Shown: positions 56,885-57,786 of the stretch, piece by piece
Layout: every line of letters starts with the position of its first letter
How positions within the stretch are numbered: the stretch's first letter is position 1
Assembly: GCF_000374085.1 (NCBI RefSeq)
Contig: NZ_KB893511.1
Coordinates: 263 to 64,262 of the forward strand
DNA length: 64,000 nucleotides
Source of the DNA: Spirosoma spitsbergense DSM 19989
GTDB lineage: Bacteria > Bacteroidota > Bacteroidia > Cytophagales > Spirosomataceae
Direction of reading: 5' to 3'
The notes under the pieces: model-generated
What the model was told of the DNA's origin: nothing
Databases searched by the model: none
The model's input: only the letters and a program-made list of their open reading frames with translations
Translations under genes and position numbers: made by a program

Positions 56885-56921
56885 AAAAAAAACAAACGCC
56901 GGCCTCATATGGGACCGGCGT
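56885..56921 (-). terminator. Intrinsic terminator of the tRNA-like RNA
   Basis: On the minus strand, ACGCCGG and CCGGCGT form a 7-bp GC-rich stem (56896-56921) followed by TTTGTTTTTTTT. It is one of the clearest terminators in the window. It ends the transcript that starts near 57191, keeping it separate from lepA. Confidence 0.88.
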
Positions 56922-56979
56922 GTCTAATTACACTTCATCAACAAACTAAACTTGTTCTGACCGCCAGGGCGATCAGTAG

Positions 56980-57138
56980 CTGTAGGAGGGGGACTCGAAC
57001 CGCCCACGGTGCAGTTAGCTACAGTACAAATCCTGGTGGTCAACCCCAGTCGCCCTTACAGGCGGCATTATGCTGCGTTTATCCTTTATCACCACCCCCG
57101 AGACAGGAGGGCACGTCTGCCAATTTCGACATCCTACA
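56980..57138 (-). ncRNA. tRNA-like structured RNA with 90-nt variable region
   Basis: Read on the minus strand, 159 bases fold as a tRNA-like cloverleaf. The acceptor stem is TGTAGGA/TCCTACA (7 bp), then TG. The D-arm has GAAATTGGCAGAC as in tRNA-Leu. The anticodon stem is CCCTC/GGGGG around the 7-nt loop CTGTCTC (anticodon position GTC). After a 90-nt variable region comes the T-arm with TTCGAGT, whose stem has one C-C mismatch, and a G at the discriminator position. CCA is not encoded. The variable region can form TGGTG/CACCA, CGCC/GGCG and TGTAG/CTGCA stems. A promoter and a terminator flank it. It fits no standard tRNA or tmRNA: the variable region is too long and no tag ORF is seen. Confidence 0.65.
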
Positions 57139-57144
57139 GTGTGA

Positions 57145-57193
57145 GGAAAAAAGTCAAGAAGACCGGCGTGTGACCCCGCTCGATCAACTTGAC
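57145..57193 (-). ncRNA. 5-prime leader hairpin of the tRNA-like transcript
   Basis: The leader starts at the predicted transcription start and has a GTCAAG/CTTGAC stem (57188-57193 with 57153-57158), followed on the minus strand by a run of six T residues. The loop contains ACACGCCGGTC, identical to the 5-prime half of the downstream terminator stem. It can therefore pair with the 3-prime half (CCGGCGT) and close the whole RNA. It looks like an attenuator or a processing stem; this is inference. Confidence 0.5.
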
Positions 57194-57197
57194 AATA

Positions 57198-57230
57198 CAA
57201 AGATAGTATAGCGCATACATTTATTGCAAA
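57198..57230 (-). promoter_or_regulatory. Promoter of the tRNA-like RNA
   Basis: On the minus strand, TTTG (57227-57230), a 21-base spacer and TATCTTTG (57198-57205) match the Bacteroidota housekeeping promoter (TTTG, 19-21 bases, TAnnTTTG). Transcription should start near 57191. Confidence 0.75.
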
Positions 57231-57312: not shown

Positions 57313-57786
57313 ATGAGCGAAAAAAATTTAGAAATTGATAATACAGACCTGAAAATCCTGAATTTATTGATGCAGGATGCCAATATGGCTTATACTGAAA
57401 TTGGGAAACGTATTTTCGTATCGGGGGGGACCGTGCACGTTCGCATGAATAAATTAAAGCAGATGGGCATTGTTTGCGGCTCCCAATTGGTGATCGACCA
57501 CGCCAAGCTGGGGTGGGACATCAGTGCTTTTCTGGGCATTTATCTAGAAAAAAGCTCGCTGTACGAAGATGTATCAGGTCAGTTGGAAAAGATTCCGGAG
57601 GTAGTCAATGTTCATTATACGACTGGCATTTATAGTATCTTCGCTAAAATTGTATGCCGCGACACGCAGCACCTGCGCGAAGTACTCCACGATAAGATTC
57701 AGAAAGTGAACGGCATTCAGCGCACCGAAACGTTTATCTCGCTCGAAGAAAGCGTCAACCGACCCATACCGTTTGCGGAAAGTTAG
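57313..57786 (+). CDS. Lrp/AsnC family transcriptional regulator
   Basis: A 157-residue regulator. The N-terminal helix-turn-helix (DNTDLKILNLLMQDANMAYTE through GGTVHVRMNKLKQMGIV) is followed by an RAM/effector domain (WDISAFLGIYLEK, VVNVHYTTGIYSIFAKIVCR, GIQRTETFISLEES). This is the standard two-domain Lrp/AsnC order; such proteins form octamers and sense amino acids. The ATG at 57313 (MSEKNLEID) is preferred over an in-frame start ten codons upstream, because that codon overlaps the promoter box. Its target is unknown. It is divergent from the tRNA-like RNA. Confidence 0.9.
   Translation: MSEKNLEIDNTDLKILNLLMQDANMAYTEIGKRIFVSGGTVHVRMNKLKQMGIVCGSQLVIDHAKLGWDISAFLGIYLEKSSLYEDVSGQLEKIPEVVNVHYTTGIYSIFAKIVCRDTQHLREVLHDKIQKVNGIQRTETFISLEESVNRPIPFAES

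Follow-up and report, generated by a model that had tools for sequence, protein, structure and literature searches.

A conserved tRNA-shaped RNA beside an AsnC-like regulator in Spirosoma and its relatives, a candidate carrier for tRNA-dependent asparagine synthesis

The window analyzed here is a 64,000-nucleotide stretch of contig NZ_KB893511.1 of Spirosoma spitsbergense DSM 19989. At 56885-57230, a sequence-only reading had noticed a tRNA-like RNA whose parts seem to belong to different tRNAs, with the D arm of a tRNA-Leu, the GUC anticodon of a tRNA-Asp, and a variable region of about 90 nt. This raises the question of whether such an RNA is real and, if so, what a cell would use it for. 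The features on which the following argument draws are these:

57139-56979, minus strand: tRNA-like RNA from position -1 to C74 (123.5 bits with covariance model R1)
57132-57138, minus strand: 5' strand of the acceptor stem, TGTAGGA, in which U1 pairs with A72
57113-57129, minus strand: D arm TCGAAATTGGCAGACGT, tRNALeu-like by comparison with tRNALeu(tag); its stem covaries in relatives
57095-57111, minus strand: anticodon arm CCCTC-CTGTCTC-GGGGG
57106-57100, minus strand: anticodon loop CTGTCTC, with GUC (positions 34-36) at 57104-57102, U37 at 57101, and C38 at 57100
57006-57094, minus strand: variable region from U44 to U48 (our numbering), 89 nt
56988-57005, minus strand: T arm with loop TTCGAGT and one bulged C in the stem
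56979-56987, minus strand: 3' strand of the acceptor stem, TCCTACA, followed by G73 and C74
57227-57230, minus strand: TTTG, -33-like element of a putative Bacteroidota-type promoter
57198-57205, minus strand: TATCTTTG, -7-like element of the form TAnnTTTG
56886-56921 (stem 56921-56896), minus strand: intrinsic-terminator-like hairpin and T run
56772-54985, minus strand: lepA, further downstream of the RNA on the same strand
57313-57786, plus strand: divergent AsnC-like regulator gene, upstream of the RNA

A conserved cloverleaf with a long variable arm

The acceptor stem of the window RNA comprises 7 bp (TGTAGGA/TCCTACA) and is followed by an encoded C74, as it also is in 31 ordinary tRNA genes read from the same genome. 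The D arm does resemble that of the genome's tRNALeu(tag) (TCGAAATTGGCAGACGT in the window RNA, GCGAAATTGGTAGACGTG in the tRNA) and has a T-T mismatch at pair 10-25. The anticodon loop departs from that of the genome's tRNAAsp (CTGTCAC) at position 37 only, and the T loop TTCGAGT is present as described. The variable region, put at about 90 nt in the sequence-only reading, measures 89 nt (57094-57006) and runs from a 4-bp stem through a 5' bulge, a short stem, and a GGATAAA/CTAAC internal loop to a lineage-specific tip.

Calls of the -33-like and -7-like elements follow the consensus of Bacteroidota-type promoters. In 29 of 40 loci, a TAnnTTTG element lies within the 130 nt that precede the RNA, compared with a mean of 5.6 (sd 2.1, maximum 12) in shuffles. 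Of the strong promoter and terminator that had been claimed, the promoter-like and terminator-like sites are found; their strength is a judgement from the consensus, and the promoter can be called strong only in that qualified sense.

Established detection tools pass over this RNA. ARAGORN reports no tRNA anywhere in the window and no long form of the RNA in the loci scanned, and a search of Rfam 15 (E<=10, 3001 bases) returned four matches, all irrelevant and below gathering scores. Neither tool gave a tmRNA match, and the anticodon arm is complete, on which grounds tmRNA was rejected; the two share tRNA-like ends, and some phage contigs carry both, but our RNA has no recognized tag frame. 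In folding energy, the tRNA-like part is ordinary relative to shuffles (z 0.19), and the whole predicted transcript of 310 nt folds better than shuffles (z -2.23, 2/100). Because folding of a single sequence does not prove a fold, comparative evidence had to decide.

A DNA search found matches in 48 of 59 genomes, the window's own included, and in 35 of 36 Spirosoma genomes by our row count, at 88-99% identity and some of them partial. In alignments of 16 and later 11 diverse copies, onto which the cloverleaf and variable arm were drawn by hand, 98.3% of the pair cells of the 11 sequences are paired and 14 of the 27 pairs vary on both sides, and none of 500 shuffles matches either value. One of five covariation measures (further pair types) was equalled by 41 of 500 shuffles, and shifting the structure along the alignment lowers pairing to 52-60%. 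Among 56 matches to the model, 97.1% of pair cells are paired and 21 of 29 pairs change (0/500 shuffles), in a set that includes one ordinary tRNA-Met and two copies cut at contig ends and whose alignment was fitted to the model.

This covariation supports the acceptor, D, anticodon, variable, and T stems alike. The variable arms of the family share a conserved base of 4 bp, a 5' bulge, and an internal loop of the GGAUAAA/CUAAC type, with a tip that differs by lineage; the extra stems foreseen in this region covary both at the base and further in, and the short second stem is paired in 81.6% of cells. The RNA is thus a real, tRNA-shaped, conserved family, and the comparative model proposed with the sequence-only reading bears out its central claim.

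Hosts, phages, and gene neighborhood

Across the phylum, the covariance model finds the family in 40 of 395 genomes by our count, 3 of them from another class (f66). Among the phylum matches listed, family members score at least 89 bits and are 110-197 nt long, ordinary class II tRNAs score at most 67.5 bits, and a single 78-nt form in genome G047 (71.2 bits) falls between both groups. A survey of the class gave 68 of 395 genomes and 46 of 196 genera (E<=1e-18; weakest 77.8 bits). The named hosts among the matches listed are Spirosoma, Dyadobacter, Algoriphagus, Cyclobacterium, Pedobacter, Mucilaginibacter, Chitinophaga, Saprospiraceae, and one Ignavibacteriales assembly, and all 80 named loci among these matches score with the covariance model. 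Several genomes hold two to five copies close together. Five tandem copies occur in Phaeodactylibacter xiamenensis (L182, 311-1053).

The RNA is also found in phages. A 30-base pattern matched 54 contigs of a viral collection, and all of them score with the covariance model, 52 as full-length forms of at least 73 bits; these fall into a long type (145-174 nt) and a short type without the insert (92-97 nt). Because large parts of the D and anticodon arms, among them positions 34-38, are prescribed by the pattern, the sequences found with it (named hosts and phages) were used only for the 1-72 pair, positions 73-74, length, and neighborhood. In 28 of the 54 phage contigs, the RNA lies 3-12 nt from another tRNA gene on the same strand; 21 of the 54 stretches carry five or more other tRNA genes, some with a tmRNA and more than 20 tRNA genes. 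Phages hence carry, in company with their tRNAs, an RNA family unrecognized by Rfam 15 in our search. Among annotated phages, the long form was unmatched and the short form gave one 75.9% match, in an unannotated record. A literature search of titles and abstract beginnings returned no paper recognizably about this RNA.

The short phage forms and the 78-nt form of G047 lack the insert, and in the long forms the insert belongs to a covarying variable arm. We therefore rejected a group I or other intron, and with it the suggestion of an intron-bearing tRNA. The G047 form (L099:7001-7078) has an ordinary short variable loop, U1-A72, G73, and the loop CTATCTC, and is labeled tRNA-Asp(atc) by ARAGORN; its genome also carries AsnA, GatB, and AsnC.

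Some phage copies show further peculiarities. In short viral contigs such as L242, L244, L255, L263, L268, and L269, the short form has, at a distance of 8-12 nt, an apparently initiator-like tRNA-Met(cat) gene starting with CGCGGGG, and other tRNAs are few or absent. Copies such as those in L240, L243, L261, and L279 have a longer D loop with an apparent extra hairpin before GG. A phage tRNA at L252:3081-3153 is listed by ARAGORN with an anticodon of two bases (tRNA-???).

Upstream of the window RNA, the divergent gene encodes a protein with Lrp/AsnC domains. It scores 161.6 bits against the AsnC model NF008384, compared with 73.7 for the next family and 47.4 for Lrp. This is below the model's cut-off of 227, yet far above the scores of the nine other models listed, and the regulator is AsnC-like; because of this score, a pure Lrp/leucine story was dropped. 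Of 41 loci, consisting of the window and 40 others that were retrieved, 25 have an AsnC-like gene immediately upstream of the RNA in divergent orientation, by our count across 13 families and two classes; in the other 16 the RNA lies away from asnC. Among the matches listed, 54 of the 75 named loci that are long enough to judge show the divergent arrangement, a further 5 being too short. No AsnC-like gene was found in the 54 viral stretches, which are parts of contigs. The suspected tie to the divergent Lrp-type gene thus persists in AsnC-like form, and the suggested control of lepA does not: lepA is near the RNA in 1 of 40 loci from other genomes (L118), so that a lepA leader was rejected.

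Eight loci (L079, L080, L084, L100, L101, L102, L103, and L118) have suf-like genes near the RNA, mostly beside the AsnC-like gene; from their size and order, we take these to be sufB, sufC, or sufD.

Identity nucleotides and decoding

Nucleotides were counted in 52 host copies (37 loci) that had been found through similarity to the RNA as a whole; the loop contributed to these searches and was not fixed in them. All 52 have U1-A72, G73, C74, U35, C36, C38, and A at 20a (our numbering), and 48 have G34; the other four lack only G34 among the five aspartate determinants. The likeness of the GUC loop, C38, and G73 to tRNA-Asp had been recognized correctly from the sequence, and it becomes the key clue in combination with U1-A72, which had gone unmentioned.

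According to PMC9976931, G73, G34, U35, C36, and C38 are the strong aspartate determinants, with G1-C72 and G2-C71 also crucial for identity; U1-A72 confers amidation of Asp-tRNAAsn, G1-C72 and U20a block it in tRNAAsp, and A73 marks bacterial tRNALeu. PMC4206432 likewise has bacterial GatCAB recognize U1-A72. Measured against these rules, the window RNA and 48 of 52 copies carry all five aspartate determinants. Of the features of bacterial tRNAAsp, G1-C72 is missing and G10 is found in only 9/52, and the A73 of tRNALeu is replaced by G73 throughout. For GatCAB, the host copies combine U1-A72 with the absence of G1-C72 and of U20a; since the genome's own tRNAAsn apparently has U at 20a, the latter criterion may carry no weight here. 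Among the 31 ordinary tRNAs read from the window's genome, U1-A72 occurs in tRNAAsn only, tRNAGln having A1-U72 (our reading). The pair is absent in 1 of 108 named host copies among the matches listed, and A1-U72 takes its place in 9 of the 52 phage forms of full length.

The host copies carry U (46) or C (6) at position 37 and never a purine, and U33 is kept in 40 and lost in 12. Among the controls, all 31 host tRNAs combine U33 with a purine at 37, and 237 of 240 distinct phage tRNAs likewise carry a purine there. That the RNA works as a decoding tRNA, as an unusual Asp or Asn isoacceptor, is suggested by GUC in 48 of 52 host copies, by the canonical elbow and T loop, and by ARAGORN, which calls the short phage forms tRNA-Asp. 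The lack of purine 37 and the loss of U33 argue against this, as does an ordinary tRNAAsp both in the window's genome and in 9 of the 21 phage stretches with at least five other tRNAs, and we regard a decoding role as very improbable.

Judged by its nucleotides, the RNA would be a tRNALeu-like body equipped with an aspartate-charging set and the GatCAB pair, and unlikely to decode, in keeping with the earlier view that it is neither a tmRNA nor any ordinary isoacceptor. It resembles tRNALeu (class II) in D-arm sequence and at the variable-arm base (U44, 4-bp stem, GU48), but has G73 instead of A73, no leucine anticodon, and an insert of tens of nucleotides. With tRNAAsp(GUC) it shares G73, C38, and the loop save position 37, but differs in U1-A72, the class II shape, and the pyrimidine at 37. 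Selenocysteine tRNA was rejected in the absence of a UCA anticodon, as was a loop acting as an anti-Shine-Dalgarno mimic, because its CCUCC lies partly within a stem and changes in relatives.

Asparagine genes and a proposed carrier role

Eighty genomes, 40 RNA-positive and 40 RNA-negative, were chosen by hand before the protein searches. An AsnC ortholog (E<=1e-50) is present in 40/40 RNA-positive and 5/40 RNA-negative genomes, at a threshold set after the list had been viewed and with G038 just outside at 9.5e-45. GatB, the only GatCAB subunit searched, occurs in 40/40 and 9/40, respectively. The reverse holds for AsnB close to the biosynthetic equivalog NF006949, found in 0/40 RNA-positive and 27/40 RNA-negative genomes (a count that includes G110, with an identity of only 41%), and AsnA occurs in 2/40 (G222 and G218) and 8/40. 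AsnRS is present in all 80 genomes and GlnRS is over its cut-off in 30/40 and 33/40; GlnRS together with GatB occurs in 30/40 and 2/40 (G025 and G041). For six RNA-negative genomes (G037, G038, G041, G042, G051, and G057), the negative call comes from the DNA search only, and such a search can overlook divergent copies; omitting these six genomes leaves AsnC in 4/34, GatB in 3/34, AsnB in 26/34, AsnA in 8/34, and GlnRS with GatB in 1/34 negatives. The RNA-negative set includes G047 with its reduced form, and Fisher p values for these co-occurrences ignore shared ancestry.

Within family f22, five genomes have the RNA and GatB and no AsnB, and three have AsnB and neither the RNA nor GatB; the three RNA-negative genomes retain AsnC. 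In family f23, two genomes are without the RNA, GatB, and AsnC together. The sole RNA-less Spirosoma genome is also without AsnC and keeps GatB, and an assembly gap is possible there. Neither AsnA nor the searched AsnB was found in ten RNA-negative genomes. Seven of the nine RNA-negative genomes with GatB are without GlnRS, so that GatCAB is probably needed for glutamine in these.

The window's genome has AsnRS, GlnRS, GatB, and tRNAAsp and is without AsnA and AsnB; its best AsnB-like protein has a lasso-peptide cyclase model as its sole NCBIfam match (E<=1e-60), below cut-off. Many RNA-positive genomes contain AsnB-like amidotransferases over the broad TIGR01536 cut-off. Six of them were classified and score far under the cut-off of the AsnB equivalog, and some of these proteins could still make asparagine.

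Probably, the RNA serves tRNA-dependent asparagine synthesis as a dedicated carrier tRNA. It would be made from its own promoter, processed as a tRNA, and charged with aspartate by aspartyl-tRNA synthetase via G34, U35, C36, C38, and G73. GatCAB would then recognize U1-A72 and amidate the bound aspartate to asparagine, which would be released by a further step and feed AsnRS. The pyrimidine at 37, the relaxed U33, and the long variable arm may keep the charged RNA from decoding, and we propose that no asparagine is thereby inserted at aspartate codons. The divergent AsnC-like regulator would adjust transcription of the RNA to the asparagine supply. An AsnC-type regulator likewise stands divergent from the function it probably controls in the asnC-asnA pair of E. 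coli, where the partner is asparagine synthetase A and not an RNA.

The closest known system is tRNAAsn in tRNA-dependent asparagine formation by AspRS and GatCAB (the transamidosome), which shares U1-A72, G73, G34, U35, the co-occurrence with GatCAB, and the predicted conversion of Asp to Asn on the RNA. The RNA differs from tRNAAsn in having C36 instead of U36, a pyrimidine at 37, a long variable arm, and apparently no part in decoding; it would yield free asparagine, whereas tRNAAsn delivers Asn-tRNAAsn to the ribosome.

Several observations count against the carrier proposal. G34, an aspartate determinant, is replaced in 4/52 host copies; the G1-C72 of tRNAAsp is absent, and G10 is rare (9/52). 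U1-A72 itself is not universal, given the A1-U72 pair of nine phage forms and the one named copy without it. G222 and G218 have AsnA besides the RNA, the RNA was not found in G025 and G041 despite GlnRS and GatB, and it lies away from asnC in 16/41 loci. Unloading asparagine at a metabolic rate would, moreover, require a further enzyme.

Staphylococcus has non-decoding tRNAGly isoacceptors that serve cell-wall synthesis. They resemble our RNA as tRNAs kept for an extra-ribosomal task and differ in amino acid and pathway. By this precedent, and given the aspartate determinants and the poorly decoding loop, the RNA might be an Asp-tRNA that serves outside decoding and passes its aspartate to a lipid, a peptide, or the cell wall, its link with GatCAB being incidental. 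Such a donor would leave the U1-A72 pair invariant in the host set, the AsnC-like regulator, and the exclusion of AsnB unexplained, and we think it improbable.

The charging enzyme offers a further, weak clue. We take the place of the His of the M. smegmatis Asp/Asn enzyme (4rmf) to matter for Asp/Asn discrimination by AspRS. Seven of eight AspRS regions yielded a protein; in these seven genomes, two of them RNA-negative, the residue at this place is K, K, K, F, L, L, and L, which would fit a discriminating enzyme in need of a GUC-bearing acceptor.

PMC4206432 notes that genera with AsnRS, GlnRS, and GatCAB and no asparagine synthetase, Bacteroidetes included, raise the question of their asparagine source, and proposes that asparagine is made in them on tRNAAsn by a non-discriminating AspRS. 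If so, the RNA could be a regulator of asparagine metabolism whose tRNA shape binds AspRS or GatCAB and whose charging state or free level signals the supply of Asp and Asn, yielding no metabolic asparagine itself. The U1-A72 pair of the genome's own tRNAAsn and the adjoining regulator would suit such a circuit. The mutual exclusion with AsnB, however, suggests a supply role; phage contigs carry the RNA by tRNA genes, with the AsnC-like gene absent from the 54 partial stretches; and K, F, or L replaces the M. smegmatis His. We hold a purely regulatory function to be rather unlikely.

The carrier proposal offers a concrete candidate answer to the question of asparagine supply in synthetase-less bacteria with AsnRS, GlnRS, and GatCAB, as posed in PMC4206432. 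If true, metabolism would be the sole task of this tRNA, whose own sequence changes would guard against misreading of aspartate codons. We lean slightly toward the broader picture of a tRNA that has passed from decoding to serving as a reusable carrier for free asparagine, under an asparagine-sensing regulator and in place of synthetases, with phage copies, those of 92-97 nt included, sustaining asparagine during infection; the phages would thereby gain an asparagine supply in the infected cell.

In three contigs, synthetase genes lie at some distance from the RNA (G132:C6, G167:C12, and G065:C2): a putative AspRS gene, a probable assignment from a weak match of the asnS model, stands about 25 kb away in two of them, and AsnRS about 6 kb away in the third.
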